From a virus: a DNA stretch of 28,731 nucleotides. Positions 779 through 26,648 of the stretch are shown piece by piece. The DNA is taken from IMG/VR virus record IMGVR_UViG_3300009164_003853, positions 1 to 28,731 of that record; one strand, written 5' to 3'. The first letter of the stretch is position 1; every line of letters starts with the position of its first letter. The position numbers and the translations under genes were made by a program. A model generated the notes under the pieces. That model ran no database searches. It was given only the letters and a program-made list of their open reading frames with translations, and was not told the DNA's origin.

Positions 779-844
779 TTGTATGTATTCCAGTATTGTT
801 GTATTGTAACAGGATCTTGATTATAAACAAGTCTTTCCTCACAG

Positions 845-1036
845 TTATCTATCCAAAGATTCTGCACCCACATCCTGAACGGGCTGGCAATCTGAGGGCT
901 TTGGGGGTCTGCCACAGCAGTATTCACATTCTTCATTATCGCATTTTTCCTCCAACCATTTATTACAGGGTTTACAATAGAAACAGTCGTGCTCTTCTGA
1001 GTACGATTTTGGTGTCTGACAACAAATCAGGTCCAT
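845..1036 (-). CDS. Small Cys-rich zinc-ribbon-like protein, 63 aa
   Basis: The protein has nine Cys in its first 48 residues (ICC near the start, CFYCKPC, KCDNEECEYCC, then SDC), with His16 nearby. The spacing suggests one or two structural zinc sites, but no named family can be assigned. The start codon overlaps the end of the upstream 281-aa gene: ATG at 1036 and that gene's TGA at 1027-1029 lie within ten bases, which indicates translational coupling and supports this start. The C-terminal tail (PPKPSDCQPVQDVGAESLDR) looks disordered. Small Cys-rich proteins of this type are common among phage early genes and may bind host proteins or nucleic acid; that role is inference. Confidence 0.65.
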   Translation of the reverse strand: MDLICCQTPKSYSEEHDCFYCKPCNKWLEEKCDNEECEYCCGRPPKPSDCQPVQDVGAESLDR

Positions 1037-4107: not shown

Positions 4108-5625
4108 TCAAGCTGTTAGTTTTCCAATGAGAGTATATCTAGTACCGCTCTCATCTGCTGTTTCGTCTTCAAACAATACTTCTACATTTATTGGAAGCTG
4201 TGTTTTAAACTCGGCCAAGGATGTAACACAGTTGATACGTCCTTCTTTACCAGTTCGATTGTTTGATTGAAACACAAAATGAGAACCTGGTTTAAGTCTT
4301 TTCCAAGATTCCCATTCTTTCATAGGCGGCATGTGTTCGCATATGGTATTGATGGTTAGATCTGCATCTTCAAATCGTTTTGCATTTTTAGTAATCACAT
4401 CAGCATCAATAATTTCTATATTAGCGTGTTCGTCAAATACTCCATGCTTTAATGATCTAACCAATAAATCATCACGATCAAAGCCAGACAATCGTTTGAC
4501 GTCTTTAGCCAAGGTAGTTATTAGTTCAACTGTGTGTTTGCAACCAAACACAATTATCTCAGAATTATTATCTAAAATAGATAGTCCGTTGATAAATTCC
4601 AGCATTTTTGTCTGAGACTGGTCTAATGCACCATTTTCTATTAAATAATTTGCCATATCGGTTTCCTTTGTTTCCTTTGTTTGCTGTTCTAGCAATTTGC
4701 GTAGTTGTCTTGACTCCTCTTCCAACTTCTTCTGCTGTTGTCTTAGTTCCTCTTCCAACTTCTTCTGCTGTTGTCTTAGTTCCTCTTCCAACTTCTTCTG
4801 CTGTTGTCTTAGTTCCTCTTCCAACTTCTTCTGTTGTTGTCTTAGTTCCTCTTCCAACTTCTTCTGTTGTTGTCTTGACTCTTCTTCTAACTTTCGATAA
4901 CGTTTTTCATCTTCTTGCTTTTGTTTTTCTAAATCTCTTTCTTGAATTGCTTCGTCAGACCATGCTCTTCCTACAAGTGTAAATCTAGTGCCTCGATCAT
5001 CAGTTAATTCTTCTTGGTGCAAAACCACAGCATGTTTTGGAAGTTGTTTTTTAAAATCTTCTATAGTATCAACACAATTAACATGTCCTTGAATTCCATA
5101 CATATTATTAGATTGAAATGCAAAGTATGCATCGTCACGCACCTTTGACCAATTGGGCCAATCGTTCATTGGAGACATGTGTTCGCATGAGGTATTTATG
5201 AACAACTTTGCTGTGCTGTAAATTCTTGGAAAATTAACAAATGCATCGCCTTCGATCAGTTTGACTTTTTTATTTTTCTTCCAAAAGTTATTCTTTGCAA
5301 TGTGTATTACCTGTTGGTCAAGATCAATTCCGTGTATACTTTTTACTTTCTCGCTCAATTTAGGTATAATAATGCTGCCATACCAACAACCAAATATAAC
5401 CACTTCACAGTTGCTGTCCAAACATCCTGTTTGATCTATCATGGACACCAATTGTGTTTTGGCAGCAAACTGATTTCTACCAAATGAGTCTTTGATATCA
5501 TTTGCCAATTCCGGATTATCTCGCATGGTAGCAAGGATGCTTTTCAGGAGAGTTAGGTCTACAGAAACGTTGTTCTGTAAATTTAAAACATTGCCTATAA
5601 ACTCTAAATCTTCTGTGTCAATCAT
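4108..5625 (-). CDS. Tandem methyltransferase-like protein with central coiled coil, 505 aa
   Basis: Two related Rossmann/SAM-methyltransferase-like domains flank a coiled coil. Domain 1 (about 70-222) has VVIFGCWYGS, HGIDLDQ, IEGDAF and SCEHMSPMNDW. Domain 2 (about 350-505) has IIVFGCKHT, SGFDRDD, IDADV and ICEHMPPMKEW. Both end in a 'RGTRFTLVGRAW/SGTRYTLIGKL' strand, so this is an internal duplication. The glycine loop of domain 2 (FGCKHT) is degenerate and may not bind SAM. Residues about 225-325 form a charged coiled coil with five 11-residue QQQKKLEEE[L/S]R repeats. I start at the ATG at 5625, whose ATGA overlaps the carbamoyltransferase stop, rather than at an upstream ATG inside that gene. 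It is probably co-translated with the carbamoyltransferase. The substrate is unknown. Confidence 0.7.
   Translation of the reverse strand: MIDTEDLEFIGNVLNLQNNVSVDLTLLKSILATMRDNPELANDIKDSFGRNQFAAKTQLVSMIDQTGCLDSNCEVVIFGCWYGSIIIPKLSEKVKSIHGIDLDQQVIHIAKNNFWKKNKKVKLIEGDAFVNFPRIYSTAKLFINTSCEHMSPMNDWPNWSKVRDDAYFAFQSNNMYGIQGHVNCVDTIEDFKKQLPKHAVVLHQEELTDDRGTRFTLVGRAWSDEAIQERDLEKQKQEDEKRYRKLEEESRQQQKKLEEELRQQQKKLEEELRQQQKKLEEELRQQQKKLEEELRQQQKKLEEESRQLRKLLEQQTKETKETDMANYLIENGALDQSQTKMLEFINGLSILDNNSEIIVFGCKHTVELITTLAKDVKRLSGFDRDDLLVRSLKHGVFDEHANIEIIDADVITKNAKRFEDADLTINTICEHMPPMKEWESWKRLKPGSHFVFQSNNRTGKEGRINCVTSLAEFKTQLPINVEVLFEDETADESGTRYTLIGKLTA
4708..4872 (-). repeat. Five tandem 33-bp repeats encoding a hendecad coiled coil
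   Basis: Five consecutive nearly identical 33-bp units lie within the double methyltransferase-like gene and encode QQQKKLEEE[L/S]R five times. Units differ by few bases (for example CTGCTG versus CTGTTG), so they are recent copies prone to slippage. Eleven-residue periodicity favours a long, slightly right-handed helical rod separating the two catalytic-like domains. Confidence 0.9.
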
Positions 5626-7133
5626 TTTTTTACCACAAAGTCTTTTATTACCAACAGATCTAATCCACATTTTTTAAATGTGTTCACAGCATCTTGAGGA
5701 GTTTCCACAATGGGTTCCTGACAGTTAAAACTGGTGTTAAGCAACATCGGGATGTCTGTGAGTTTATAAAACTCATTTATTAAACTGTAATAATGATTGT
5801 TAAATTCTTTGGTAACAGTTTGAATTCTTGCAGTACCGTCTACATGTGTTACTCCCGGAATCTTGTCTGATATCACAGGCATGATCCTTGACATAAACGG
5901 ACTGGGTTGATTGGTGTCAAAGTAGTCTTTGTAGTGTTCATCTAGAACACTAGGCGCAAAAGGTCTAAAGTCTTCACGCATCTTGACAACACTGTTAATG
6001 ATATTTTTAATATCTGGGTTTCTAGGATCGGCTAAAATACTTCTATTACCCAGGGCTCGATTGCCTGATTCACTTTTACCTTGAAACCAACCAACAATGC
6101 CCCCGTCAGCAATTGCCTTGGCCACTTCAACGTAAATTTCTTCCATTGGCTTTTGCTGGTAAGACAGTCCTTCGAATATGGCAGAGTCTACTTCATACTC
6201 ACCGCCCGAATAGACTGTGGGAACGTGAACGATGTCATTTAACACATAGTCGGCATGCATATAGGTTCCAATGGCCTGACCTTCATCTCCTGCCGCAGGC
6301 GGCACATGTACATTTACATAATGCTTGGTAAATGCTTCATTCATATAGCCGTTGTAGGCAACTCCGCCTGCAATACATAAATTGTCAGAAGTTTTAAGAG
6401 GATATACAAATTTCTTAACAAGCTCAATGGTAACATACTGTAGTGTAAATGCTACATCTTTTTTAGGAACACGCCTTAGAATATCTCTAGCATTGTTAGG
6501 AAGTTTGTGATTGGGATTTTCCAAGTACTGATGAATCATAGCATACACTTCATCGTTGTACTGGCCAAACCCCACTAGTCCCATTACTTTGCCTGCATCA
6601 AGGTATCCAAAACCAAGATCCTGAGCTAGTCTATTCCAAAGACCGCCTATTGACATGTTCTCAGACAAGTTTGTAATTAGGCCAGTCTTGTCAATGAAAA
6701 TGCAATTGAATTGCCATCCTCTTCCGTCTATTGCCAGTATGTCACTTTCTTTAAACTGTGAACTTAGAAATGCGTATGCAGCATGACTCTGATGATGGTC
6801 GATATAGTAATAGCTGTCTGTGTGCAATCGGTCCCATAGATTGGTTGGATTAAATTTTAAAAAATCTGTATCCGGTAGTGTTTCTTGAAGCAGGTCTAAT
6901 ACAAATTCCTGACCTAGGTTAGAAACAGTAAATGCAAATACCTCATCTTTAGTGGTACTTATATAGTTAGGTATGAAGTACTCATTAAAAAACTCTCTGC
7001 TGTACGTGGGATCGTGAGGATTTTTTCGATTGAGATTGTGTTTTCTTCGGTTGTGTCTTTCCACTTGATTGTGAAATACACCGTCATAGGTATTGTGATC
7101 GTGAATGTTTACTGCGACAGAAAATATTTTCAT
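5622..7133 (-). CDS. Carbamoyltransferase, NodU/CmcH/TobZ family, 503 aa
   Basis: Enzymes of this family transfer a carbamoyl group from carbamoyl phosphate, through carbamoyl-adenylate, to a hydroxyl of a sugar or antibiotic. Conserved motifs are clear. HHQSHA at 113-118 belongs to the N-terminal Kae1-like domain (metal and ATP binding), with LAIDGRG near 133. The C-terminal YrdC-like part has GWFQG at 348-352, RALGNRSILADPR from 359, REDFRPFAPS at 386-395 and LNTSFN at 465-470. The length is slightly below the usual 550-600 residues. Its ATG sits in an ATGA overlap with the radical SAM gene upstream, and its stop overlaps the methyltransferase-like gene. Glycan or small-molecule decoration is the likely role; the acceptor is unknown. 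Confidence 0.93.
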   Translation of the reverse strand: MKIFSVAVNIHDHNTYDGVFHNQVERHNRRKHNLNRKNPHDPTYSREFFNEYFIPNYISTTKDEVFAFTVSNLGQEFVLDLLQETLPDTDFLKFNPTNLWDRLHTDSYYYIDHHQSHAAYAFLSSQFKESDILAIDGRGWQFNCIFIDKTGLITNLSENMSIGGLWNRLAQDLGFGYLDAGKVMGLVGFGQYNDEVYAMIHQYLENPNHKLPNNARDILRRVPKKDVAFTLQYVTIELVKKFVYPLKTSDNLCIAGGVAYNGYMNEAFTKHYVNVHVPPAAGDEGQAIGTYMHADYVLNDIVHVPTVYSGGEYEVDSAIFEGLSYQQKPMEEIYVEVAKAIADGGIVGWFQGKSESGNRALGNRSILADPRNPDIKNIINSVVKMREDFRPFAPSVLDEHYKDYFDTNQPSPFMSRIMPVISDKIPGVTHVDGTARIQTVTKEFNNHYYSLINEFYKLTDIPMLLNTSFNCQEPIVETPQDAVNTFKKCGLDLLVIKDFVVKK

Positions 7134-7987
7134 TGATTGCCTACTTGTAATTTTTGCAATTCCTCTTCTTTAAGTATCTCAATGATTCGATTTTTTTGTG
7201 CTGTGGGCCGTTTTGGAATAATGTCATAGCACCGTTGACAATATTTTTCAAACTCAAATAGTTTGTAATTCATCATCTTATCAATGTTTTCTTTGGTAAC
7301 ATCAAACTGTCGTGAACCGTTAATTACTTTTCTGCTACAATGACGAATTTTTTGTATTTCAAAATCAAACACAGGTACTAGAGGAAACTTGGCACACACC
7401 TTGCGGTTAAGCTCGGGTGCCTGTACAGGTTTATGATCTGTGAAAAAGTCCGGAGACCTTGAATTGTATTCTTTGAATTCGGTGTTTTTATGATCAAGCA
7501 CAGATAGGTCGTACTGTTCTCTATACTTAAAATAATTAGGAGTCTTTATGATTAGATTGTAATTATTTTTATCGTTTTCTTTAAAGAATTCAAAGTTACC
7601 TAATTTTTCAATGCGTTCTTCGTAGAAGTCTAAAACCAAGTGTTCGATGTAAATGATCTCTGGATCTTCTAATATGTCTGGATAAAATTTACGGACTAGA
7701 GAGTTAGACAAAACTTGAATTACTAGATTGGGATGTTTTTTAATCTCGGCAATGACTTCTCTTAGATTCTTAACAAGGCCGGGCTCGCCACCTAGCAAGC
7801 AAATGCGTGTTTTGTAAGGACTCAGTCCATCTAAAATAGTTCTTACAAAGTCCATGTCTACATGGAGATTCCTCATCTCAAGAGTCCATGCAGTACAATA
7901 GTAACACGACTTATTACAAGACTTTGTTAGATAAAAGTCAACGGTGCGATAGTCTGATCCTTTTAGATCAGCCAGTGTTTTGATCAT
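7130..7987 (-). CDS. Radical SAM protein, 285 aa
   Basis: The radical SAM iron-sulfur motif CxxxCxxC is present as C24-C28-C31 (CNKSCYYC). It is followed by a GGEPG motif (66-70) that normally contacts SAM. More Cys lie towards the C-terminus (CAKFP, HCSRK, KYCQRCYD), suggesting one auxiliary cluster of SPASM/twitch type. Proteins of this class start reactions by making a 5'-deoxyadenosyl radical; the substrate cannot be read from sequence. The stop overlaps the carbamoyltransferase start as ATGA, implying translation in a fixed ratio and possibly a shared pathway. A CCAGGAC-like ribosome site precedes the ATG at 7987. A TATAAAAATA at about 8005-8014 (minus strand) resembles a late promoter but has an extra base. 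Confidence 0.9.
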   Translation of the reverse strand: MIKTLADLKGSDYRTVDFYLTKSCNKSCYYCTAWTLEMRNLHVDMDFVRTILDGLSPYKTRICLLGGEPGLVKNLREVIAEIKKHPNLVIQVLSNSLVRKFYPDILEDPEIIYIEHLVLDFYEERIEKLGNFEFFKENDKNNYNLIIKTPNYFKYREQYDLSVLDHKNTEFKEYNSRSPDFFTDHKPVQAPELNRKVCAKFPLVPVFDFEIQKIRHCSRKVINGSRQFDVTKENIDKMMNYKLFEFEKYCQRCYDIIPKRPTAQKNRIIEILKEEELQKLQVGNQ

Positions 7988-8029
7988 TTGGTGTCCTGGA
8001 TATTTTTATATTGTTAATAATTGCGTTTT

Positions 8030-9106
8030 TTAAACAAAGGATGTTGGTATTTTGCTTGGGCCATTGGTGAGAATATCAAGAAATATATCATTTAGTGATA
8101 GTAATTGATCTTTTGTTTCTTCGTCGTTGAGTACATTGTCTATAATATAATTAATTAAAAATTTATGGACATTGGTTTCAACTTCGAGGTTCTGTATTTG
8201 CCTAACATCCTTTATCCAATATCTTGACGCTATATGGCTTATATTGCTGATTTTATTTATATTGCTGATTTTTTTTAAATTTAAATCAGAAACGTATGCA
8301 TCAAAAACTAAATTTAAATCTCTATGACATTTGACATAATCATCGGTTCTGGTTGGATAATTATTTTTCTGCCATTCTACAACTGCTTCAATGACTGTTG
8401 ATTTACTATCAATTAATTTTCTGATTGGCGCTTCTATTATTTGTTCATTCTTTACAAAGTTTACAATTCGTGCGTAATCTGGCCTAGTATCTAACAATTC
8501 TAATCCAATATACGTGTCTCGTACATATTTTAGTCCCTTGCCAATTGTCACCACAAAATCTGGGCGATGGTCTAAGAATTTCCATTCATCTTCTTCCCAG
8601 TTCTCTAATTTTTTAGGAAAGCATAGTACATACGACACATCTATTCGATATTCTAAACATAGCGCAGCAAAGGTATTGGTAAACATCCCGATCTCTAGAA
8701 TTGCATTGGTATAATGTTCGTCTATCTTAGTAGGATCTATTTGTGAATAATTTCGCCCTTTACTGATCATATGTCGTTGAAATGGATTTGGTTGATCCTC
8801 AACTCGTTGTGTAAATATCAATAGGTGCGAGCAAGTTACTATGTTGTGAAATCTTGGTAATTTGTCGCCAGGTCTATTATAATCGTCTTGGTTATATTCG
8901 TGATAGTAGGCTTTTTTATAAATTTTGTTTTTTAGATCTTGCTGATCGGGGCCTAGTACATGAACTTTATACGGCATAAAATTATTTTTTGACGGAGTTA
9001 CCTTCCAAGTTCTTTCTAGCAAATCGCTTATAAGAGATTCCGGTATATCTGCATTTTGATCGTACTCTTTTACATACTTGTATTTTTTATAAATGTCGTC
9101 GATCAT
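8030..9106 (-). CDS. Nitroreductase-like domain fused to a virion-type domain (NTR-X order), 358 aa
   Basis: Residues 1-215 look like a divergent nitroreductase (FMN oxidoreductase) fold. LLERTWKVTPSKNNFMPYKV corresponds to the 'aA..aPS..N.qpw.f' entry. ILEIGMFTNTFAALCLEYRIDVSY corresponds to the 'd.g.a..nl.l.A...Gl...' helix. PDFVVTIGKG is the final strand. Residues about 220-350 are a second domain, 'WQKNNYP......YVKCHRDLNLVFDAYVSDL...IASRYW'. This resembles the 'CRRDvg.ivDA...DL......A..Y' helical domain I associate with marine T4-like virion proteins. The same domain is at the N-terminus of the upstream gene, in reversed order. The gene follows that neighbour after a 1-base gap, with a GGGAGA ribosome site. 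The nitroreductase assignment is moderate and activity is unproven. Confidence 0.65.
   Translation of the reverse strand: MIDDIYKKYKYVKEYDQNADIPESLISDLLERTWKVTPSKNNFMPYKVHVLGPDQQDLKNKIYKKAYYHEYNQDDYNRPGDKLPRFHNIVTCSHLLIFTQRVEDQPNPFQRHMISKGRNYSQIDPTKIDEHYTNAILEIGMFTNTFAALCLEYRIDVSYVLCFPKKLENWEEDEWKFLDHRPDFVVTIGKGLKYVRDTYIGLELLDTRPDYARIVNFVKNEQIIEAPIRKLIDSKSTVIEAVVEWQKNNYPTRTDDYVKCHRDLNLVFDAYVSDLNLKKISNINKISNISHIASRYWIKDVRQIQNLEVETNVHKFLINYIIDNVLNDEETKDQLLSLNDIFLDILTNGPSKIPTSFV
8057..8449 (-). repeat. Domain X copy B (virion-type helical domain), C-terminal copy
   Basis: This stretch encodes residues about 220-350 of the 358-aa protein and is closely related at both DNA and protein level to 9906-10280. 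Both begin NE[QP]IIE and share EWQKNNYP, KCHRDLNLVFDAY, HKFLINYIIDNVL and GP at the end. Copy B is 393 bp and copy A 375 bp. The 18-bp difference is accounted for by a local tandem duplication at 8241-8276. The near-identity indicates a recent duplication. Confidence 0.88.
8241..8276 (-). repeat. 18-bp tandem duplication inside domain X copy B
   Basis: Two 18-base units starting ATATTGCTGATTTT (plus-strand reading) lie side by side, at 8241-8258 and 8259-8276, differing at one base. They encode the duplicated NINKIS segment that is absent from copy A. The insertion keeps the frame and falls in a likely inter-helix loop. It looks like a recent slippage event. Confidence 0.85.
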
Positions 9107-9107
9107 A

Positions 9108-10283
9108 TCATTCTCCCGAATGGAATGTTGTTATGGTGCTTACACTTGGTTTATTTTCCCAATGCATACGTTTGGGATTTTTGCTGTTGCTTCGAAACCA
9201 ATCTCGCACATTTGCTACATAACCTAGTTGTACAATCATCAAAGGCTGTTCTGTAATACAAGGCAGAGAGCTCCAATCTAGCCCGTGCTTGTTGCCATTC
9301 TTTCTATATACTCCAGCTTGACCTGCCCATTGCCATTCCGGGAATGATCTTATGTAGGATATTCCTAGATCGTTTTCTAAACATAGGCCTGCCAGTGCTT
9401 GTACAAACATCCCAACTTCAATGCAGGTTAATTTGGTATTGCATAGTTCTCTGAATCTTTTTTCGTCGGTTTGTGTAAATCTGCTGTAGTCGTCGTGCAG
9501 GTTGGAATATTCTTTAACAAAATTATTTGGTTCTGCAAGTCTTTGTTCAAACACCAATACCCATGGTGATATTCTTCTATCCTTGCCCTCTTCATCGAGA
9601 ATATATTCTGTTATGTTTTGCACTCCATTAAAAGATTTAAATTCTCCGTTGTGATTTGCATCATCCCAGTGATTCACTGATCCTGTTTCGTATAAGGTAC
9701 AAATCTGTCCAACGATTTCTTTTTCTTTTGGATTGTCGGGGCCGAACGCATGAATCTTAAAAGGAAACAAATTCTGCTTAGAAGGACTAATATTAAGTGT
9801 GCGCTCAAGCAAATTTTCTATTAGTTCCTTGCTTGGCAGTTTTTGCTGATCCCAGGCTGCACGAATCTGCCTTCTTTTCGAATATAGATTTTCAATCCCT
9901 GTTGTCGGTCCATCGGTAAGAATATTAAGAAATACATTGTTTAGAAATAGTAATCGATCTTTTGTTTCTTTGTCTTCGAGTACATTATCTATAATATAAT
10001 TAATTAAGAACTTATGGACGTCAGTTTCAACTTCGAGATTGTGTATTTGTCTAACAGACCCTACCCAATATTTTGATGCTATATAACTTATACTACTGAT
10101 TTTATGTAAATTTAAATCAGAGATATATGCATCAAAAACTAAATTTAAGTCTCTATGGCATTTGGCGTAATCATTGGTCCTATTAGGATAATTATTTTTC
10201 TGCCATTCTATAACTGTTTCGATGACAATCTGTCTGCTTTCAGTTAATTTTTGAATCCCTGTTTCTATTATTGGTTCATTCAT
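9108..10283 (-). CDS. Virion-type domain fused to a nitroreductase-like domain (X-NTR order), 391 aa
   Basis: Residues 2-126 are copy A of domain X (IEWQKNNYP, KCHRDLNLVFDAY, IASKYW). Residues about 130-391 are a divergent nitroreductase-like domain homologous to the N-terminal half of the downstream protein. It has LLERTLNISPSKQNLFPFKI, EVGMFVQALAGLCLENDLGIS and PLMIVQLGYV, and ends in a basic tail. The domain order is the reverse of that in the neighbour. Its ATG overlaps the stop of the classical nitroreductase upstream (ATGA). The order along the transcript is therefore NTR, X-NTR, NTR-X, which suggests tandem duplication of an NTR-X unit followed by a shift of gene boundaries. The substrate is unknown. 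Attachment to virions through X is only a possibility. Confidence 0.65.
   Translation of the reverse strand: MNEPIIETGIQKLTESRQIVIETVIEWQKNNYPNRTNDYAKCHRDLNLVFDAYISDLNLHKISSISYIASKYWVGSVRQIHNLEVETDVHKFLINYIIDNVLEDKETKDRLLFLNNVFLNILTDGPTTGIENLYSKRRQIRAAWDQQKLPSKELIENLLERTLNISPSKQNLFPFKIHAFGPDNPKEKEIVGQICTLYETGSVNHWDDANHNGEFKSFNGVQNITEYILDEEGKDRRISPWVLVFEQRLAEPNNFVKEYSNLHDDYSRFTQTDEKRFRELCNTKLTCIEVGMFVQALAGLCLENDLGISYIRSFPEWQWAGQAGVYRKNGNKHGLDWSSLPCITEQPLMIVQLGYVANVRDWFRSNSKNPKRMHWENKPSVSTITTFHSGE
9906..10280 (-). repeat. Domain X copy A (virion-type helical domain), N-terminal copy
   Basis: It encodes residues 2-126 of the 391-aa protein and is the partner of the repeat at 8057-8449. It lacks the 18-bp insertion and otherwise aligns along its full length. 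The two copies are direct repeats about 1.8 kb apart, so recombination between them would delete one nitroreductase-like region and fuse the rest. Confidence 0.88.
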
Positions 10284-11014
10284 AAAATTTTTCCATTTAA
10301 TGTTACTCTAATATTTTTTTCAAAACTGGGAAACCTCCAATGTTCATCCGGCTCGCCGTTTCGAACAGCTTCATGAACATCTTTGTTTAATGCTTCAGCG
10401 TGTAATCTACGATCAACATCAACATTTGGATATCCAATCCCCACTAACAGTTTTATTCTATTATTTACACCAAGCAATTGTCTAACTGGATCTTCATCTA
10501 TGGCTGAGCATATACCAGTTTTATATCCTAACAGGGTCGCAGACAGTATGAGTTCACCTACGCTAATCCCGATAGAAACATTTATTTGTTCTTCGTATAG
10601 TGTCATTGCATTACTATCTCTATTCTCTTTTGCGGCAGTGTGTGTTGCAGATCTTGTCCTGCCCTCTTCTCTTACATATACGAATAAAACATTTGCAAGT
10701 ATTTGAGAATTTTTTACAGACAGTGTGTCATCTTGCCAGTATTTTCCGTTTTCGTCAACTCCAAACCTTCTTGTTTGTCCAGGTGATCTGCATGTAAATT
10801 TTTTTGTATTATCGTACACCTGTTTAATTATAGACTGATCAGTGTATATCTTCAATGAATAATGTGTTTCATTTTGTTTAGAAGGAGAATTAGCAGCAGC
10901 GTATATCAGTGTTTTTAAATCTTGTTCTGGAATAGTTTTAGATAGGTCGTAGTTGCGCTGTGCTCGTTGTGCTATGTCTACTGCTTTTTTTATTTCTTCA
11001 TGCATATAATTCAT
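10280..11014 (-). CDS. Nitroreductase-family FMN oxidoreductase, 244 aa
   Basis: Nitroreductase-family enzymes use FMN and NAD(P)H to reduce nitro groups, quinones or flavin, or to oxidise azolines, aromatics or reduced flavin in specialised pathways. The signature features are present: AAANSPSKQNETHYSLKIY (residues about 33-51, FMN-binding entry), a central SIGISVGELILSATLLGYKTGICSAI helix-turn, and LLVGIGYPNVD near 200. It is the most classical of the three adjacent paralogues. Two ATGs (11014 and 11005) are possible and neither has a strong ribosome site. I keep the first because it overlaps the aminotransferase end by 17 bases. The downstream stop overlaps the X-NTR start. The substrate is not predictable. 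Confidence 0.85.
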   Translation of the reverse strand: MNYMHEEIKKAVDIAQRAQRNYDLSKTIPEQDLKTLIYAAANSPSKQNETHYSLKIYTDQSIIKQVYDNTKKFTCRSPGQTRRFGVDENGKYWQDDTLSVKNSQILANVLFVYVREEGRTRSATHTAAKENRDSNAMTLYEEQINVSIGISVGELILSATLLGYKTGICSAIDEDPVRQLLGVNNRIKLLVGIGYPNVDVDRRLHAEALNKDVHEAVRNGEPDEHWRFPSFEKNIRVTLNGKIL

Positions 11015-12077
11015 TACGTAAAGTGTTTATAATATTTTTAATTTCGTCTTCTGTTAACCATGCATGTATTGGCAATGATAAAATAGTTTCAGAAACCAAT
11101 TTAGAATTTACACAATCGTCTTTTCTATAGGCAATGTTGTTGTACATTGTGTTTATGCTCAACGACTTTTCATAATGAACCGAAGCACGAAGTGCATTTT
11201 TTACTCGATCCCTAGTTTGTTTATCCTTGAACCTTAATGTATATTTGTGATAATTATGATTTAGACCCGGTGAATCTGTTTGTGTATACACTGGCAAATC
11301 TTTAAACGCTTCGTTGTATTGACGAGCAATCTCTTGACGTTTTGTCTGAGTCTTTTCCATACTTTGCAATCGTAGGTCAATGACTCTTGCATTGAGAACA
11401 TACATTCTAGAATTGAAACCCAGCATTTCAAAGTCGTCGCCTTTGCCATGACGTCTAATTTTTTTAACTAACTTTGCCTGTTTTTCGCTGTCAGTTAATA
11501 ATACGCCACCACCGTTAATGCCTGCAATGACTTTGTTGCTGTTAAAACTATACACGCTACAATCTCCAATGGTGCCTGCCTTTGTGCCATGTAGACTTGA
11601 TCCTAAACTTTGTGCCGCATCTTCAATAAATGCAATGCCTTTTTCTTTACAGAACTCTTTAATCGCAGTAGTATCTGTCATATTGCCAAAAAGATGAACA
11701 TACACAACAGCCTTGACCTTTTCGCTGTACATTCGTTTAACACTGTCTAGATTCATGTGGTAAGAGTCTAGATTGATGTCACAGAATACAGGTGTTGCAC
11801 CTACTGCACTAATACAGGCCGAAGACGATATCCAGGAAAAATCAGTTACCAGTACTTCGTCACCCGGTCCTATGCCGTAACTCAGTAATGCAAAGTGCAA
11901 TGCATCTGTGGCATTTGCCACTGATACAGCATACTTTTTACCTACACGCTCTGCAAAGGATTTCTCCCACTGTTCATTGTTTTCGTAGTTGAGCTGTGAC
12001 ATAAACTTGTCGAATAACTCTAGGTATGCTTGTTTATTTTCTTGGTACTCTCGATCCCAACCGTCATATGATGTCAT
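10998..12077 (-). CDS. DegT/DnrJ/EryC1 family PLP aminotransferase, 359 aa
   Basis: These fold-type I enzymes usually convert nucleotide-keto-sugars to amino sugars, and more rarely act as dehydratases or make aminocyclitols. PLP features are visible: VANATDALHFAL (about 53-64, phosphate cup), DFSWISSS near 79, IEDAAQSLGS with D153 and Q156, and the Schiff-base lysine K182 in SFNSNKVIAG. The GGGVLLTD and RRHG motifs follow. The length is normal. It sits between a radical SAM gene (ATGA overlap upstream) and a nitroreductase (17-base overlap downstream). The neighbouring glycosyltransferase-like and carbamoyltransferase genes favour amino-sugar synthesis for a glycan, but the donor and product are inferred. 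Confidence 0.93.
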   Translation of the reverse strand: MTSYDGWDREYQENKQAYLELFDKFMSQLNYENNEQWEKSFAERVGKKYAVSVANATDALHFALLSYGIGPGDEVLVTDFSWISSSACISAVGATPVFCDINLDSYHMNLDSVKRMYSEKVKAVVYVHLFGNMTDTTAIKEFCKEKGIAFIEDAAQSLGSSLHGTKAGTIGDCSVYSFNSNKVIAGINGGGVLLTDSEKQAKLVKKIRRHGKGDDFEMLGFNSRMYVLNARVIDLRLQSMEKTQTKRQEIARQYNEAFKDLPVYTQTDSPGLNHNYHKYTLRFKDKQTRDRVKNALRASVHYEKSLSINTMYNNIAYRKDDCVNSKLVSETILSLPIHAWLTEDEIKNIINTLRNELYA

Positions 12078-12820
12078 AGTGATTCCAATTTTTTATGTGA
12101 TAACTTTCGCCAGTCGTTAAGACTCTTAGATTTATATCCCCAATACTCTTTTTTAACTCGCTCTTGAATATATTTTTTATCAGGACTTGTTAGTTGAAAG
12201 TCTACGCTTTTTCTAAGCAAGGGATTGTCTGCGCTAAAACCTCTATTTGTGTTTATGAATAATAGACTAAAATCTTCTTCTTTGGCTATTTCTATCGCAC
12301 GATCTATTTCGTGCTCGTTGTAGCCAAAAATAATGTATTGCCAGACTATGGTATGTCCTGCATCCCTGCCTTGCTTCATTCGTTTCCAAACATCGTCAAA
12401 GTTTGAACCTATCCTGTACAATTCACTCTTGTTGTCAATTCCGTCTACACCAAAGTACCATGCGTTTTCTCCCACGCCATAGCTGTAGGCTTCATCCCAC
12501 CAAGCATCACTTTTGCCACTTCCAACGGTTGCAATTCTAATTGCCTTGCCTTGCCCGCTACACATTTTTAAAATGTTTAAGAAATTAGGATGATAGATAG
12601 GATCAGATATCTGTCCGCAGAAAGTGATACCATATTCGTAATAATCAAGTATTTTTTTAAAATTATGTTCTTCTAGATCAAAGGATCTACGAATCTGTTC
12701 TTGACTTGTTGTTTTTTGACGTATGCATTGAGGACATTTGAATACGCATCGATATGATGCATCAACATTGGGTCGAACAAACCGTTGATACTTTACATAT
12801 TCATCAGTTATTCTTGCCAT
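12074..12820 (-). CDS. Radical SAM protein, 248 aa
   Basis: The CxxxCxxC cluster motif is C25-C29-C32 (CVFKCPQC). It is followed by a TFCGQISDPIYHP segment in place of the usual GGEP, as in some radical SAM/SPASM proteins, and by WYFGVDGID and a C-terminal helix-rich part without clear auxiliary Cys. I start at the ATG at 12820, preceded by GGAGCAGG, rather than at an upstream in-frame start that would extend deep into the preceding gene; the overlap is then 17 bases. The upstream gene encodes a free SPASM-like domain, so the two may together make one split radical SAM/SPASM enzyme. The stop overlaps the aminotransferase start. The substrate is unknown. Confidence 0.85.
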   Translation of the reverse strand: MARITDEYVKYQRFVRPNVDASYRCVFKCPQCIRQKTTSQEQIRRSFDLEEHNFKKILDYYEYGITFCGQISDPIYHPNFLNILKMCSGQGKAIRIATVGSGKSDAWWDEAYSYGVGENAWYFGVDGIDNKSELYRIGSNFDDVWKRMKQGRDAGHTIVWQYIIFGYNEHEIDRAIEIAKEEDFSLLFINTNRGFSADNPLLRKSVDFQLTSPDKKYIQERVKKEYWGYKSKSLNDWRKLSHKKLESL

Positions 12821-13154
12821 TGGCCTGCTCCTTGATTTCAGCTCTTTCCTCGGCCCTAACTGCATCTTTATCTATATCAACACCGCATTTCTTTTTACAC
12901 ATGTACGAAGCATTTTCAGGCCTAGTTAACAGTGTTTGAAAAAAGTTTTCCCATTGATCTGATGTAAAAATATCTTCTAATCTTTCGTTATTAGATAACA
13001 ACAGTTCTTCATCCTTTAGACCGCACATTTTAATATACCGATAAACCGGAGGATCATCTAACCAGCAACAGGGCAACATAAATCCGTCTGATGTATAAGC
13101 TGCTCCTTTGTTATCATTTGAAGTGTAGTTTAAACACTTTGGGTTTATTTTCAT
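12804..13154 (-). CDS. Free-standing SPASM/twitch-like iron-sulfur domain protein, 116 aa
   Basis: The sequence resembles the C-terminal auxiliary-cluster domain of radical SAM/SPASM proteins with no radical SAM core. It has an N-terminal CLNY, then TSDGFMLPCCWLDDP (the 'g.v.PCC..d' motif), CGLKDEE, a 'lediFtSdqWenFfqtl' stretch typical of SPASM regions, and CKKKCG near residue 88. A Lys/Glu-rich helical tail follows (ERAEIKEQ). It begins in an ATGA overlap with the glycosyltransferase-like gene and overlaps the radical SAM gene downstream by 17 bases. A split enzyme in which this subunit binds auxiliary 4Fe-4S clusters for the adjacent radical SAM protein is the simplest reading, but it is inference. 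Confidence 0.7.
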   Translation of the reverse strand: MKINPKCLNYTSNDNKGAAYTSDGFMLPCCWLDDPPVYRYIKMCGLKDEELLLSNNERLEDIFTSDQWENFFQTLLTRPENASYMCKKKCGVDIDKDAVRAEERAEIKEQANGKNN

Positions 13155-14005
13155 TTGAGTTTCTCTATAGCATTTAATATTGGGGCAACATCGAGCTTTT
13201 TAATATCACGTTTATAGTATACGCTGCCACCATCGTGTATCGATTGGTCTCTAAGATAGATCAATCCTTTTCCGTAGTACTTGCACTCTTGTACGATTCT
13301 AGGAGCAGGATCAAACGTTTCTTTGACATAGACATAGGTATCAAAAATACCCAACAAGTTTTCTATTGGTGCAAATACATTATTGTTTTTAATGTTAACA
13401 TATTTTTCACGGTATGTCAATATCCCATTGTCTGGAAATTGATCAATAAATTTTTCTGCTGTTGCATAGTATTTGTCATTGGTTCCCTGAAATAGGTATT
13501 TGAATTGAATGTTATCAGTATGAGGTTTGTATATGTCAAAATAGATGGTTTTTTCAAAATGTTCGCCAACACCGTTGGAATAAACTTCTGTGTCACATAA
13601 ATCAATGATTTTCTCCGGAGAGTAAAACTCCACTGCTTTGGGATAGCCTTCGGGATGATTTTCGGAATACACAGAAATTATTTTGCCTGCAAATAATTTT
13701 CGCAGTGTAGATTGTTGCGTTTCTTGATATCGGGCAAACTCTTGCCAGCTTGAGGTCATCATGCTTCTGCCCATGATCAGCGTTATGTCGTCTTTTGCCG
13801 GAGTGAAATCATCAAACACTACATTTTGGTTGTGAATGTACTTGTTGTCAATGGCGCTGATGTAATTTTCTTTTGAGAATCTTCTATGACCAACAATAAC
13901 CAATCGGGCTGCTATGCCTAGAGAATTTAGATACGAACAATGTTCGTAGCTATAATACAATAGACCGTCAACGGGCTTGCTGGTGCATACAATATTTAAA
14001 GTCAT
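13151..14005 (-). CDS. Glycosyltransferase-like protein, 284 aa
   Basis: The protein has the alternating strand-helix pattern of a GT-B-like fold: MTLNIVCTSKPVDGLLYYSYEH at the start, ARLVIVGH, DDITLIMGRSMM and KIISVYSENHPEGYPKAVEFY in the first half. The second half has KYLFQGTNDKYYATAEKFID, FDTYVYVKETFDPAPRIVQECKYYGKGLIYL and a final helix. The 'FDPAPR.vQEc.yyGk' region occupies the place of the donor-binding Glu-rich motif of family GT4-type enzymes, but the match is loose. No membrane segment is present. It is the first gene of the minus-strand biosynthetic run, 91 bases from the divergent plus-strand operon, with GATAAATA about 20 bases upstream. An alternative is a phage-specific protein with no transferase activity. 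Confidence 0.55.
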   Translation of the reverse strand: MTLNIVCTSKPVDGLLYYSYEHCSYLNSLGIAARLVIVGHRRFSKENYISAIDNKYIHNQNVVFDDFTPAKDDITLIMGRSMMTSSWQEFARYQETQQSTLRKLFAGKIISVYSENHPEGYPKAVEFYSPEKIIDLCDTEVYSNGVGEHFEKTIYFDIYKPHTDNIQFKYLFQGTNDKYYATAEKFIDQFPDNGILTYREKYVNIKNNNVFAPIENLLGIFDTYVYVKETFDPAPRIVQECKYYGKGLIYLRDQSIHDGGSVYYKRDIKKLDVAPILNAIEKLK

Positions 14006-14025
14006 CTTGGTTATTCAATGTTAGA

Positions 14026-14033
14026 TATTTATC
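14026..14033 (-). promoter_or_regulatory. T4-late-like promoter element for the minus-strand cassette
   Basis: GATAAATA on the minus strand matches the T4-type late -10 consensus TATAAATA at 7 of 8 positions. It lies 21 bases before the ATG at 14005, in a 91-base divergent intergenic region. There is no -35 element, as expected for late promoters. The surrounding AT richness lowers certainty. Confidence 0.45.
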
Positions 14034-14072
14034 TTAGATTTGTTCAGATCTAAAATAAACTACCCAGTTAAT

Positions 14073-14080
14073 AATAAATA
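14073..14080 (+). promoter_or_regulatory. T4-late-like promoter element for the plus-strand operon
   Basis: AATAAATA matches TATAAATA at 7 of 8 positions and lies 16 bases upstream of the ATG at 14097. It pairs with the opposite-strand element at 14026-14033 to form a candidate divergent late promoter region. No clear ribosome binding site separates it from the gene. Confidence 0.4.
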
Positions 14081-14096
14081 ATTTGGTCTAACTATT

Positions 14097-14843
14097 ATGA
14101 AACATTTTGATCAAATCAATCCTCAACAGATATTATCTAATGGTATAACAATACATAGTTCTGGGACCAGCGGTGAGCCCAACGCATATTTTCAGTCTCC
14201 TGATAAAATAAAAATTGCCAACGAACTTGCACGAGATCGTCAACAGATAGTTAAATCAAGCAAAGTCTATACTTGTTGTAAAATCACTCATGCTGGTGGC
14301 CTGCTTGCTCAAACATTGCCTGCTTTAGAAATTGGAGCAGAAGTTGACATTGAAGATTTTAATGCATACGCCTTTGTTAAAAAAATAAAAAATTACACTC
14401 ATTCTCATATAACTCCTTTACATGCCCGAGCAATAATGATGACCAAGGGATTTCATAGCTTGGATTTAACAGGAGTATGGATAACCTGTGGTGCTGATCC
14501 AGTTACCTGGGATATAATAGAATCATTTGTGACCAAAGGCGCAAAGGTTTTAGCCAATTGGGGAATGAGTGAAATTGGTCCAATTGCTATTAACACGTTA
14601 TTTGACAGCATAGAGAAAGTTCATTACTATAAGTCTCTGTGTCCTAGTAATGCAACAATACTAGGAGATGTGGCGGCATGTGATTTTAAAATAGTAGATA
14701 GCGAGTTGTGGGTTCGGGGCGGCATATCAATCTACAATGATTGGTACGCTACTAAAGATATGGTAGTCAGCAACCAAGGAATACTGTTTTATCAGGGTAG
14801 AACAAACAAGGAGGTGGATTTGTGGAATCCAGTCAAGGGCTAA
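14097..14843 (+). CDS. Half-length acyl-adenylate-forming (ANL) enzyme, 248 aa
   Basis: ANL enzymes activate a carboxylate as an acyl-AMP and often pass it to a thiol or amine. The core motifs are in order: SSGTSGEP at 21-28 (ATP-binding P-loop, A3), NWGMSEIGP from 154 (A5, normally YG.TE), YATKDMV with D221 (A7, ribose contact) and GRTNKEVD from 234 (A8 hinge). The protein lacks the N-terminal A1/A2 region and the mobile C-terminal domain with the A10 lysine, so it is about half the usual 500 residues. Loss of A10 normally weakens adenylation. It may be a minimal adenylase, work with a partner, or be degenerate. It overlaps the next gene by 22 bases, consistent with acyl transfer by its product. 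Confidence 0.82.
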   Translation: MKHFDQINPQQILSNGITIHSSGTSGEPNAYFQSPDKIKIANELARDRQQIVKSSKVYTCCKITHAGGLLAQTLPALEIGAEVDIEDFNAYAFVKKIKNYTHSHITPLHARAIMMTKGFHSLDLTGVWITCGADPVTWDIIESFVTKGAKVLANWGMSEIGPIAINTLFDSIEKVHYYKSLCPSNATILGDVAACDFKIVDSELWVRGGISIYNDWYATKDMVVSNQGILFYQGRTNKEVDLWNPVKG

Positions 14844-15415
14844 CAACTGTTGAATTTACATCTGATCAAATATCAGCTGTAGAAGAATTCTGTAGAGCAT
14901 GTGAACTTGTTGGATATAAAAATAACATCAGCGTTAAATCCATGCGGTTAGATTGGTGCTTGAATTTAGGAGGACAGTTCTTCTTAACCTACAGCAATGA
15001 CAAAATAATTTCATTGAGTGGATGTCACCCCTTGCCCGAAGCAGGTGAACATGTTTACAGAATACTGTTTAGAGGCGCAACATTGCCCGAATATCAGAAC
15101 TTACACGGAACACTAAGCAAAACTCATATGAATTCTATTCCGTTCTACTATCATGTACCGAAACAGATATTGTGGGCATTATCTGCAGGTTATACCGACT
15201 ATGCAATTACAACAAACCACAACAACAAAGACGGAATTCAGTCAATGAATAAAAGTCATCGAGTATTTAAACTGCTTGAGAAACAGCATATGGTAACTTG
15301 TCTGCATGAAAATCTATGGTTATTCAATAACGCTCAAAGTGTTTGGAGCGTAAACGTAGATAACTATAACATTGCTAGAAATAATTTTAAAGAAAGAAAT
15401 GGACACGATATTTAA
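14822..15415 (+). CDS. Acyltransferase-like protein (GNAT-type suspected), 197 aa
   Basis: The start is GTG at 14822, behind a near-perfect AAGGAGGT ribosome site inside the end of the adenylation gene. The protein shows a strand-rich centre (GGQFFLTYSNDKIISLSGCHPLP), a YRILFRGATLPEYQ strand-loop and KTHMNSIPFYYHVPKQILWAL. Then come GYTDYAITTN and a C-terminal helix-strand pattern (SHRVFKLLEKQHMV). This layout fits a GNAT-like fold, but the acetyl-CoA loop (Q/RxxGxG/A) is not obvious, so the assignment is tentative. Tight coupling to the acyl-adenylate-forming enzyme suggests it uses or modifies the activated acyl group. It overlaps the next gene by 17 bases. Confidence 0.5.
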   Translation: MESSQGLTTVEFTSDQISAVEEFCRACELVGYKNNISVKSMRLDWCLNLGGQFFLTYSNDKIISLSGCHPLPEAGEHVYRILFRGATLPEYQNLHGTLSKTHMNSIPFYYHVPKQILWALSAGYTDYAITTNHNNKDGIQSMNKSHRVFKLLEKQHMVTCLHENLWLFNNAQSVWSVNVDNYNIARNNFKERNGHDI

Positions 15416-16163
15416 TAATAACAATTATCTTTTTATATTGGCCAACCAAGGTGCCGGCGGACATCGGTTGGGGAGAATAATCAGTTGTTTTAATAGTGTC
15501 TATTGGTACAGTTCTAAACACAACGGAATTGACCCTTGGGATGTTTTTTTAGACAACACCATTGCTGGAAAAGACATCAGCAAATATCATTATGACCGAA
15601 TCATGGATAATAAAACAGTACCTATTCTAGGGGAAAGAATATTAAAATGGTGGAACTCGGAAGACTGGGATAAATTTTATAACACAAATTGGTTGACAGA
15701 ATTTAAAAAAATCACCTTGCCTGCCAACATGATTATCCATTGGGTATTGCATGATACTCCGGCTGAGCTGCATAGAAAATTTCCACAGGCCAAAATTATA
15801 TCATTGATAGACACTGATATAGATTCAGTCACTAACCGATACATGCAAACTACAGCAAGATTTCCCTGTGCTATAAATCATTTTAATTTAAAACCATCTT
15901 ATAAAAATCAGTACGCACAGTATGTAGATGAATTAATCAATCCAACAGAACAACAGCTTTGGTTTCAAATTAATAAAAATTCTACTGAAACGGATTACAT
16001 CAACTACATAAAAGAAAACCTAACACTGTTGAACAATGTTAGGCAGTCTTATGTAAACAAAAATTATCTAACTGTTACGTGGGGAACATTAGATATTGGC
16101 GTTCTTAAAAGTTTTTTAAACGCCAGCGAAATTGATCAATCTTATAAAAAACTGTTAGATTGA
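15399..16163 (+). CDS. Divergent P-loop protein, sulfotransferase-like suspected, 254 aa
   Basis: I start at the ATG at 15399, preceded by AAAGAAAGAA, rather than at an in-frame ATG 27 bases earlier. Near the N-terminus, FILANQGAGGHRLGRIISCF resembles a Gly-rich nucleotide-binding loop followed by a helix. At mid-length, FPQAKIISLIDTDIDSVTNRYMQTTARF resembles the 'ki.L.RdP.d...S.y' phosphosulfate-binding strand-helix of sulfotransferases. Both are diverged, and the classical PAPS motifs are not intact. It ends the plus-strand trio. Its stop runs 9 bases into the convergent minus-strand P-loop gene, with no terminator between them. The nature of the transferred group is unknown. Confidence 0.5.
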   Translation: MDTIFNNNNYLFILANQGAGGHRLGRIISCFNSVYWYSSKHNGIDPWDVFLDNTIAGKDISKYHYDRIMDNKTVPILGERILKWWNSEDWDKFYNTNWLTEFKKITLPANMIIHWVLHDTPAELHRKFPQAKIISLIDTDIDSVTNRYMQTTARFPCAINHFNLKPSYKNQYAQYVDELINPTEQQLWFQINKNSTETDYINYIKENLTLLNNVRQSYVNKNYLTVTWGTLDIGVLKSFLNASEIDQSYKKLLD

Positions 16164-16714: not shown

Positions 16715-17404
16715 TTAAACAATTTCAAAAAATGCAACTTTGATTGTGTCTTTGATTATTGGGTCAGCCTTTGGTTCTATAACTCTTGTATCTGGAAATC
16801 TAGAATGAAGCCATTGTCCAGCGGAATCAAAGTCCCACCATTCAATACTGTGCTTTTTAGCAAATTCTAAAACCAGATCGCTTTCTTCTTTTATCTGCTT
16901 TGACATTTTCTCAGGACCTTCATACCATGTATATATGGGATAATGTATATCCCATCCCCCCATACTATACCACCAATCTTCTGCGGCTTTTGGTTCACGC
17001 CATATCAGCAGCATCTTATGGCCTTTACAGTTTTTCCATATCCAATCTAGATTGTATGCAAACCAATGGCTTCTAATCAGCTTGTTTGGTCGTTCTTCAT
17101 CTGTGAAAGGTTTAAAACATTCTTTTAAAAAAGATTCTGTTGTGTAGTTTTTAGAAATATTGTCAAACCCGTGGCCGAAATCATGATATGGACCAAAATA
17201 AGATCCAACATGAGTTGTTTGTTGCCATGAGGTATCGGTTATATTATAATGTCGGCCTGCATGTTCCTCAGGCATTTTATAAATTTTTTCGGTGGTTTCA
17301 TCAGTTTTATCAAAATAAGGCATTATTCTTTTTAATCGATTACTGATCATGCTCCAGCATGACCCAGGCGCTCCTGTGGTAAAGACCAATGTATGTTTTT
17401 GCAT
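16715..17404 (-). CDS. P-loop sulfotransferase-like protein, 229 aa (paralogue 1)
   Basis: The P-loop TTGAPGSCWS (residues 9-18) follows a hydrophobic strand, matching the phosphosulfate-binding loop position of sulfotransferases. Other shared features with the paralogues at 17406 and 23045 are THVGSYFGPYHDFG...FD, RSHWFAYNLDWIWKNCKG, the strand MLLIWREPKAAEDWW (the 'iyi.RdP' strand) and GGWDIHYPIYTWYEG. All three families of motifs are conserved in order, which argues for an active enzyme family. Whether PAPS is the donor is not certain, since a kinase role is also possible. It directly follows paralogue 2 with a 1-base gap, a tandem duplication. Confidence 0.6.
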   Translation of the reverse strand: MQKHTLVFTTGAPGSCWSMISNRLKRIMPYFDKTDETTEKIYKMPEEHAGRHYNITDTSWQQTTHVGSYFGPYHDFGHGFDNISKNYTTESFLKECFKPFTDEERPNKLIRSHWFAYNLDWIWKNCKGHKMLLIWREPKAAEDWWYSMGGWDIHYPIYTWYEGPEKMSKQIKEESDLVLEFAKKHSIEWWDFDSAGQWLHSRFPDTRVIEPKADPIIKDTIKVAFFEIV

Positions 17405-17405
17405 A

Positions 17406-18071
17406 TTAGGTTATTTCCGTATAAATGACTGATATTTTGTTTACATTGTATTCGACGGCTGGCGGCCTGTTAGTTTGAGTGATTTCTTCTCTGCCAAATT
17501 TTTCTAGCCACCATTCTTCACAATATGTTTCCCATTTGAGATTTTTTTCTTTGGCAAATCTTAATAAGCTGTTGTTCTCTTCTATGATCTGCTGGGTTAT
17601 TTTTTCATTATTTTCATACCAGGTGTATACGGGATATTTAATATTCCACCCGCCTATTTTCTCCCACCAATCAATTGCACCTTGACTTTCTTTGTGAATT
17701 AGGAATAGGGTATTTCCTTTACAATTTTCCCATAACCAATCTAAATTATAAGAAAACCAATGGCTTCGAATACATTTAGTCTGACTGCCGTCATGGTTAA
17801 ACGGAAGTCGACATTCGTTGTAAAAACTTTCTAAGGTATAATTATTTGGAATATCGTCGAAGCGTTCACCAAATTCATTATAAGGTCCAAAATAACTTCC
17901 AAGGTGTGTTCTATTGGTATCCTGTGTGGGATCTCGGTGTGGTGCTAGATGATGGCGGGATCCGTTGATATCTGATAGATCGTGATTTAAAATAAGTTTA
18001 AGACGATGAGAAAGCATACTCCAGGAACTTCCGGGCACGCCAGTAACAAAACAAAAATTAGGATTGATCAT
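17406..18071 (-). CDS. P-loop sulfotransferase-like protein, 221 aa (paralogue 2)
   Basis: It has the same architecture as its tandem neighbour: VTGVPGSSWS at 9-18, THLGSYFGPYNEFGERFDDI, RSHWFSYNLDWLWENCKG, the strand TLFLIHKESQGAIDWW, and GGWNIKYPVYTWYEN followed by a helix. The 'RdP' arginine of the canonical family corresponds to a Lys here (HKESQ), one difference from paralogue 1 (WREPK). The C-terminus diverges, so substrate specificities may differ. It begins in an ATGA overlap with the 2-oxoglutarate oxygenase-like gene upstream, so the two are likely made together and may act on the same target. Confidence 0.6.
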   Translation of the reverse strand: MINPNFCFVTGVPGSSWSMLSHRLKLILNHDLSDINGSRHHLAPHRDPTQDTNRTHLGSYFGPYNEFGERFDDIPNNYTLESFYNECRLPFNHDGSQTKCIRSHWFSYNLDWLWENCKGNTLFLIHKESQGAIDWWEKIGGWNIKYPVYTWYENNEKITQQIIEENNSLLRFAKEKNLKWETYCEEWWLEKFGREEITQTNRPPAVEYNVNKISVIYTEIT

Positions 18072-26640: not shown

Positions 26641-26648
26641 TATTTATG
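26641..26648 (-). promoter_or_regulatory. T4-late-type promoter for the fibre-like gene
   Basis: CATAAATA on the minus strand matches the late consensus TATAAATA at 7 of 8 positions and continues into TATAAC. It lies 36-43 bases upstream of the ATG at 26605 and just after a rho-independent terminator. No -35 hexamer is present. Its position before a structural gene fits late expression. Confidence 0.7.

Follow-up and report, generated by a model that had tools for sequence, protein, structure and literature searches.

Radical SAM genes are known in outline from the host-recognition and baseplate regions of phages, both in pelagimyophages (PMC7029224) and in the Campylobacter phages CP220 and CPt10 (PMC2853527). 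Here, we describe a biosynthetic cassette in the 28.7-kb IMG/VR virus record IMGVR_UViG_3300009164_003853 (28,731 nucleotides, analysed as a whole and called the window below), in which two radical SAM enzymes, RS1 and RS2, stand in one transcriptional direction with a glycosyltransferase, an aminotransferase, a carbamoyltransferase, nitroreductases and a methyltransferase-like protein. Our preferred reading, to which we give about an even chance, is that of a late phage pathway that builds a carbamoylated, methylated amino-sugar-like (or aminocyclitol-like) group and attaches it to virion fibres.

In pelagimyophages, which are T4-like marine phages, Zaragoza-Solas et al. (2020, PMC7029224) defined the host recognition cluster as an island extending from the neck genes to VrlC, containing tail fibres, glycosyltransferases and radical SAM cassettes, the last of which are mentioned in passing. 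The text of that paper contains neither carbamoyltransferase nor nitroreductase, and we found in it no description of a conserved core, a SPASM split or cassette late promoters. CP220 and CPt10 carry, by the baseplate lysozyme, several radical SAM and glycosyltransferase-like genes that are interchangeable between phages, and one of these radical SAM proteins is a distant relative of RS2. Their module differs in having an amidinotransferase, and neither a DegT aminotransferase nor a carbamoyltransferase nor a nitroreductase is among the annotations of the stretch examined (PMC2853527).

Bacterial pathways share other parts of the enzyme set. Those for aminocyclitol antibiotics (butirosin, with BtrN and a DegT enzyme; tobramycin, with TobZ) likewise use a twitch radical SAM enzyme, a DegT aminotransferase and an O-carbamoyltransferase, whereas the present cassette is phage-encoded, has no inosose synthase and adds a glycosyltransferase and nitroreductases. 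O-antigen and pseudaminic/legionaminic clusters have DegT enzymes such as PseC and LegC and GT-B transferases, but the cassette lacks their nucleotide-sugar dehydratase, synthase and flippase, and has a split SPASM beside its two radical SAM genes. We found no paper describing the cassette in a literature search that had subscription papers and preprints outside its range. What is new is the definition of the core and of its gene order, the swappable slot, the probable RS2/SPASM split, the late-promoter evidence, and the near-absence of RS1 and RS2 from the bacterial sequences searched.

Layout and conservation of the cassette

Ten co-directional minus-strand genes run head to tail from position 14005 down to 4108, in the following order:

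13151–14005, minus strand, GT-B glycosyltransferase (GT), first gene of the unit (AlphaFold/structural match)
12804–13154, minus strand, stand-alone SPASM-like subunit (Pfam SPASM only 0.09)
12074–12865, minus strand, radical SAM enzyme RS2 (Pfam Radical_SAM 8e-7)
10998–12077, minus strand, DegT/DnrJ/EryC1/StrS aminotransferase (DegT), core gene (Pfam DegT 6e-84, residues 28–354)
10280–11014, minus strand, nitroreductase NR3 (Pfam Nitroreductase 5e-13)
9108–10283, minus strand, nitroreductase-like NR2, with the shared extra domain at its N-terminus (family profile)
8030–9106, minus strand, nitroreductase-like NR1, with a C-terminal extra domain of about 135 residues (family profile)
7130–7987, minus strand, radical SAM enzyme RS1 with a twitch/SPASM-like C-terminal part, core gene (Pfam Radical_SAM 7e-7)
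5622–7133, minus strand, O-carbamoyltransferase of the NodU/TobZ/GdmN type (CARB), core gene (Pfam C-terminus 1.2e-65, N-terminus 3e-21)
4108–5670, minus strand, double methyltransferase-like protein (Pfam Methyltransf_25 2.5e-5, N-terminal half)

By the coordinates of the open reading frames (ORFs), most of these genes overlap or stand less than 45 nt apart, the largest gap being 42 nt (7988–8029). A preliminary description of this DNA, made from its letters, had placed 4108–16163 in a single operon of overlapping genes, which holds for the minus-strand unit 4108–14005 but not for 14097–16163, a separate, divergent plus-strand unit. Domains were assigned with Pfam, PHROGs, NCBIfam, PDB sequence searches and two AlphaFold models (RS1 and GT), and every enzyme type named in that description was recovered by Pfam, the nitroreductase family profile or the GT-B model, the SPASM match reaching only 0.09; the methyltransferase-like gene at 4108–5670 had gone unnamed. 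Purifying selection is strong in close pairs, with ratios of nonsynonymous to synonymous substitution (dN/dS) of 0.05–0.25 where dS is measurable and unsaturated (0.13 for the methyltransferase-like gene), and the cassette ORFs are therefore no chance frames. The first 25 kb of the window have no near-identical match among 50,697 phage records.

IMG/VR searches returned 78 loci for RS2 and 308 stretches for RS1, of which 80 were kept, and 52 non-redundant RS1 loci were left after dropping those with RS1 at least 95% identical. CARB lies directly after RS1 in 46 of the 52, DegT lies upstream of RS1 on the same strand in all 35 loci with enough upstream sequence, and the order GT-DegT-RS1-CARB-methyltransferase is kept in 12 of the 14 loci whose context is complete in both directions. 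This bears out the earlier view of these genes as one cassette, and a single conserved core pathway is very probable. The composition, on the other hand, which had been called unusual, is not unique, since the same core recurs in hundreds of IMG/VR stretches as well as in Mosig, a cultured pelagiphage.

While the core is fixed, the slot between DegT and RS1 holds 10 different gene sets among the 14 full-context loci. Nitroreductases, PP-loop ATPases, a large radical SAM protein or RS2 together with a small SPASM protein can fill it, or it may be empty. Isochorismatase-like (a label read from sequence) and SGNH-like families also occur in or near the cassette of relatives. In the window, DegT and NR3 are nearest to loci L110/L111 (dS 0.35–0.44), whereas RS1, CARB and RS2 are nearest to L001 and its overlapping loci (dS 1.3–1.4), and the cassette is therefore a mosaic.

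Genes carried separately had been named as the observation that would argue for an assembly of independent accessory genes. The RS2-SPASM module does occur apart: in the pelagimyophage-like contigs L044–L072, whose gp6 is 58% identical to that of Mosig, it stands among baseplate genes and has a PP-loop ATPase, a large radical SAM protein or a nitroreductase as its companion, but the core itself stays together. Three of these contigs (L053, L059 and L066) also bear RS1 about 30 kb off, and the two examined at RS1 have the whole core and a second RS2/SPASM pair. In L074, RS2 and SPASM are accompanied by a marginal RS1 match. Of 23 long contigs that hold relatives of cassette genes, 8 have a recognised gp23; none was found in the 57-kb fragment of the nearest contig, L001, and no T4-like hallmark gene was recognised in the 28.7-kb window. 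On the contig of L001 (G298), the phage contig nearest to the window, a gene of the flavin-dependent tryptophan-halogenase type (L176:18477–19337; Pfam 1.5e-73) is cut at the contig end.

Enzyme families and predicted chemistry

DegT is a full-length family match with the pyridoxal-phosphate lysine, and the SFNSNK motif is present in the sequence. It is nearest to PseC/LegC/ArnB and to inositol/inosose transaminases, scoring 1.6e-57 and 2.9e-57 against the nucleotide-sugar aminotransferase profiles of PseC and LegC, both below the equivalog cut-offs, and 3e-60 against scyllo-inositol transaminase 7b0d in the PDB search; it shares 56% identity with Mosig DegT. Members of this DegT group are established to aminate keto sugars or inososes, an activity that is predicted here from sequence.

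CARB contains the Carbam_trans_N and Carbam_trans_C domains, with an HxxxH metal-site motif at residue 113, and matches PHROG 1601 at 3e-108. Its PDB relatives are GdmN, TobZ and the novobiocin carbamoyltransferase, the nearest group being GdmN/TobZ/NodU, whose members O-carbamoylate sugars and antibiotics. The carbamoyltransferase of cyanophage S-SZBM1 has been read as part of pyrimidine biosynthesis (PMC9146016); that reading would be wrong if its enzyme belongs to the NodU/TobZ type, the annotation given to phage members of PHROG 1601.

GT has no Pfam match. Its AlphaFold model (predicted local distance difference test, pLDDT, 93) shows a GT-B fold and matches PimA (Foldseek 1.5e-6; Z 15.8) and BshA (Z 16.0, root-mean-square deviation (rmsd) 3.4 over 245 aligned residues); GT-B enzymes transfer sugars. 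At the other end of the unit, both halves of the 4108–5670 protein resemble the single methyltransferase found at the same place in most relatives, where this family (k11) is present in 34 of the 78 loci found with RS2 and 72 of the 80 kept for RS1. The gene looks duplicated, with an in-frame (EEELRQQQKKL)n coiled-coil repeat at the join, and a full-length relative is found in L083/L154, on the contigs of L001/L002.

In RS1, the cluster motif C24-x3-C28-x2-C31 and the cysteines C198, C217, C250 and C253 are invariant across 17 sequences, the latter four as expected for an auxiliary cluster and in a pattern that we take to match the ligand spacing of BtrN. The AlphaFold model of RS1 (pLDDT 81) has BtrN as its top structural match (Z 12.6, 202 aligned, rmsd 3.8), yet tied with BlsE (12.4), SuiB (11.9) and PqqE (11.8), and sequence similarity to BtrN is marginal (E 0.007). 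BtrN and BlsE act on substrates of the aminocyclitol and sugar type.

RS2 probably starts near 12820 (MARITDEYV...), which leaves a short overlap with the SPASM gene, and it has invariant C40, C44 and C47 in addition to a CGxxSDP motif. The SPASM-like subunit has invariant C7, C29, C30, C86 and C90. Among 71 non-redundant RS2 loci, SPASM lies upstream in 37 and a SPASM-type gene downstream in 20, counts that may overlap, and two RS2 paralogues (L012 and L056) have a SPASM-like stretch fused at the C-terminus. Because RS2 usually has a SPASM-type gene next to it and fused paralogues exist, the two proteins probably form one enzyme in two chains, the SPASM-like protein being its split auxiliary Fe-S domain.

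NR1 and NR2 have no Pfam match, and their family profile matches solved PDB nitroreductases at 6e-6; NR3 is 26% identical to the Mosig nitroreductase. NR1 and NR2 share an extra domain of about 125–135 residues, which is also N-terminal on nitroreductases of L001, L084 and L123. It stands alone in L038, as a gene directly upstream of GT (766–1134, plus strand). This domain gives repeated weak matches to giant virion and tail-fibre PHROGs (8e-4 to 0.07), the 8e-4 match being that of the NR2 copy to PHROG 18802, a virion structural protein, while tblastn found no match in phages. These similarities hint at a tail-fibre origin and, if true, would tie the nitroreductases to the virion. A viral-contig search based on NR2 returned no relatives, although the RS2-based loci hold some, its search patterns being too narrow.

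Late promoters, genomic location and spread

The late promoter of marine T4-like phages is NATAAATA (PMC2984593). Its core occurs six times in the window against 11 expected by shuffling, and two of the six lie in the gap between the divergent units, one facing each:

14006–14096, no strand, divergent intergenic region of 91 nt, ATAAATA cores at 14026–14032 (minus) and 14074–14080 (plus)

Shuffling of this gap itself gives 0.19 cores where two are observed. A further core (26641–26647) is upstream of the tail-fibre gene with an Mtd_N domain, and another is 80 nt upstream of an Asp/Asn-hydroxylase-like gene, so that short upstream gaps on the same strand hold four of the six (the binomial P, about 2e-6, ignores the AT-richness of gaps). 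Across all loci, the motif is present in 16 of 37 distinct GT or NR3 leader regions versus 2.8 in shuffles, and in 11 of 12 gp5 baseplate genes, which served as the positive control. In Mosig, which encodes a late sigma factor and a late accessory protein, the 35-nt divergent gap of the cassette contains three cores, one facing the cassette. Scans for sigma-70-like promoters and terminators stayed near the shuffled expectation and were not used. The promoter motifs suggest that the cassette would be transcribed with the late genes.

Mosig, whose cultured host is Pelagibacter ubique HTCC1062, carries the cassette at 60990–71305, between the neck genes (37983–39614) and VrlC (74619–80756), and more closely between the tail-fibre genes and VrlC. 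Its cassette therefore falls within the host recognition cluster as PMC7029224 defines it. Neither VrlC nor the neck gene gp14 was recognised in the 28.7-kb window, which has the content of such a cluster in its Mtd_N fibre gene (24338–26605) and its GT-B gene (13151–14005).

RS1 and RS2 appear, from the sequences searched, to be largely virus lineages. A search of 84,980 bacterial and archaeal species genomes with RS2 found two relatives, one of them (L081) on a viral-looking contig. L081, binned as a Flavobacteriaceae metagenome-assembled genome, has a nitroreductase, two glycosyltransferase-like genes, RS2 and SPASM by tail-fibre-like genes, and looks like a misbinned phage contig. The second, L082, has a nitroreductase-like ORF nearby but is a relative at only 27% identity, and was set aside as a generic SPASM enzyme. 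No RS1 was found in plasmids, and 296 genomes from the phylum to which G001 belongs yielded a single weak relative (L164), which was also rejected, its short context showing no cassette.

The genes across the divergent gap, and one fibre gene further on, are the following:

14097–14843, plus strand, compact adenylate-forming (AMP-binding) protein, non-core (Pfam AMP-binding 5e-8)
14822–15415, plus strand, protein without a recognised domain (no Pfam match), travelling with the AMP-binding gene
15372–16163, plus strand, weakly sulfotransferase-like protein (Pfam Sulfotransfer_4 0.061, below cut-off)
24338–26605, minus strand, tail-fibre-type protein with the N-terminal domain of the major tropism determinant (Pfam Mtd_N 3.3e-9)

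The AMP-binding protein has SGTSG and WGMSE motifs. Its gene had been counted as a pathway member, but it lies in the divergent unit and is a neighbour of the cassette rather than a core member, because its family is found in just 10 of the 78 loci of RS2 and 3 of the 80 of RS1; the family of 14822–15415 is found in 12 and 11, respectively. Elsewhere, the window encodes a substrate-binding protein of the tripartite tricarboxylate transporter (TctC, 20758–21747, minus strand, Pfam 1.6e-21), here phage-encoded, and a dual-specificity-phosphatase-like protein (28008–28475, minus strand; Pfam DSPc 7.7e-6, below cut-off, and Tc-R-P 1.7e-6). Three related proteins without a curated domain (cluster c97; 16715–18071 and 23045–23758, minus strand), duplicated within the window, each begin with a P-loop-like motif and are possibly sulfotransferase-like.

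Proposed pathway and competing readings

In the proposed pathway, RS1 and the split RS2/SPASM enzyme would activate one carbon of a sugar-like substrate, by oxidation or in some other way, DegT would place an amino group on a keto carbon, CARB would O-carbamoylate and the methyltransferase would methylate the product. The nitroreductases and other swappable enzymes of the DegT-RS1 slot could perform further tailoring, and the GT-B glycosyltransferase would transfer the group to its acceptor. We infer the order of chemistry, the product and the acceptor alike. Decoration of virion fibres is favoured because the chemistry of the enzyme families, the predicted late expression and the position among fibre genes point the same way, and a virion fibre or baseplate protein is a more likely acceptor than host lipopolysaccharide (LPS) because the cassette sits with tail fibres and late-gene transcription is expected. 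The suggestion of the preliminary description that a virion or host surface is modified thus survives as the best reading. More tentatively, and probably beyond what will prove correct, the phages may have evolved a combinatorial system in which a fixed core (GT, DegT, radical SAM, carbamoyltransferase and methyltransferase) and a swappable slot (nitroreductases, PP-loop ATPases and split radical SAM/SPASM) give the tail fibres a coat of carbamoylated amino-sugar that is chemically new, varies from phage to phage and tunes host recognition.

Several observations weigh against the decoration of virion fibres. More than half of the leader regions have no late-promoter core; the peptide-acting SuiB, anSME and EpeE score nearly equal among the structural neighbours of RS1; and the near-absence of RS1 from bacteria rests on searches without SAR11 genomes specifically, which leaves a virus-only distribution unproven. 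Neither an acceptor nor a nucleotide-sugar-forming enzyme was identified in the window, and the source of the sugar would therefore be the host or a gene elsewhere in the phage. Besides, modification of host LPS is preferred in PMC7029224.

The main rival, possible though unlikely, is modification of the host envelope, in which the same chemistry on the O-chain or another surface glycan would change the receptor and block superinfection, in a manner resembling seroconversion. Such a role has been proposed for the glycosyltransferases of the pelagimyophage host recognition cluster (PMC7029224), and both DegT and GT resemble LPS and O-antigen enzymes. However, the late-promoter cores, and the fact that the cassette adjoins tail-fibre genes, suggest that it is expressed late, alongside virion parts, and borrowed O-antigen genes should have close bacterial kin, whereas the RS1 and RS2 lineages were not found in the genomes searched (SAR11 not being sampled for RS1).

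Rather improbable is a direct modification, by the radical SAM/SPASM enzymes and nitroreductases, of residues in a tail-fibre or other phage protein, to which carbamoyl, methyl and glycosyl groups would be added afterwards. SPASM/twitch enzymes often act on peptides, as do EpeE, SuiB and anSME among the top matches of RS1; RS2-SPASM modules lie within baseplate gene clusters, the nitroreductases carry a fused domain that weakly resembles tail-fibre proteins of phages, and an Asp/Asn-hydroxylase-like gene is among the neighbours. Nevertheless, the 42-nt maximum gap leaves no room inside the unit for a short precursor-peptide gene of the type used for ribosomally synthesised and post-translationally modified peptides, although one may lie elsewhere, and peptides are not known substrates of DegT enzymes or NodU-type carbamoyltransferases.

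The natural-product-like pathway of the preliminary description, a diffusible small molecule made in the infected cell, has lost most of its ground and is now a slim prospect. The set does recall aminoglycoside and nucleoside pathways, with a BtrN/BlsE-like RS1, an inositol-transaminase-like DegT and a TobZ-like CARB, and an adenylating gene adjoins it. That gene, however, is outside the conserved core, the location is among tail fibres, a GT is present, and Pfam and NCBIfam scans of the cassette recognised no carrier protein, nonribosomal peptide synthetase or polyketide synthase domain, or exporter.

We consider DNA hypermodification, in which GT would place a sugar on modified phage bases in the manner of T4 alpha-glucosyltransferase, very improbable. 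The T4 enzyme is indeed among the structural matches of GT (5e-5; Z 14.2), but other GT-B enzymes score equal or higher and the promoters are late rather than early. The annotation of Mosig, save for about 12 kb, names no cytosine or uracil hydroxymethylase but only an ordinary ThyX, and in the window, too, ThyX alone was seen. Finally, chance assembly of independent accessory genes, despite the hypervariability of the region, the mosaic descent of DegT/NR3 and RS1/CARB, and the occurrence of RS2-SPASM alone (L074) and apart from the core, is scarcely credible and largely refuted for the core, whose genes strictly co-occur in order, although the divergent adenylating unit may still be such an assembly.

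A conserved multi-enzyme pathway with late promoters is thus carried by phages whose relatives infect SAR11 and other marine bacteria. If virions are decorated by it, the cassette would represent a chemically elaborate and modular virion-modification system, and would provide a reason for keeping a large hypervariable island beside the tail fibres. With Mosig growing on Pelagibacter ubique HTCC1062, the function of the cassette is directly testable.

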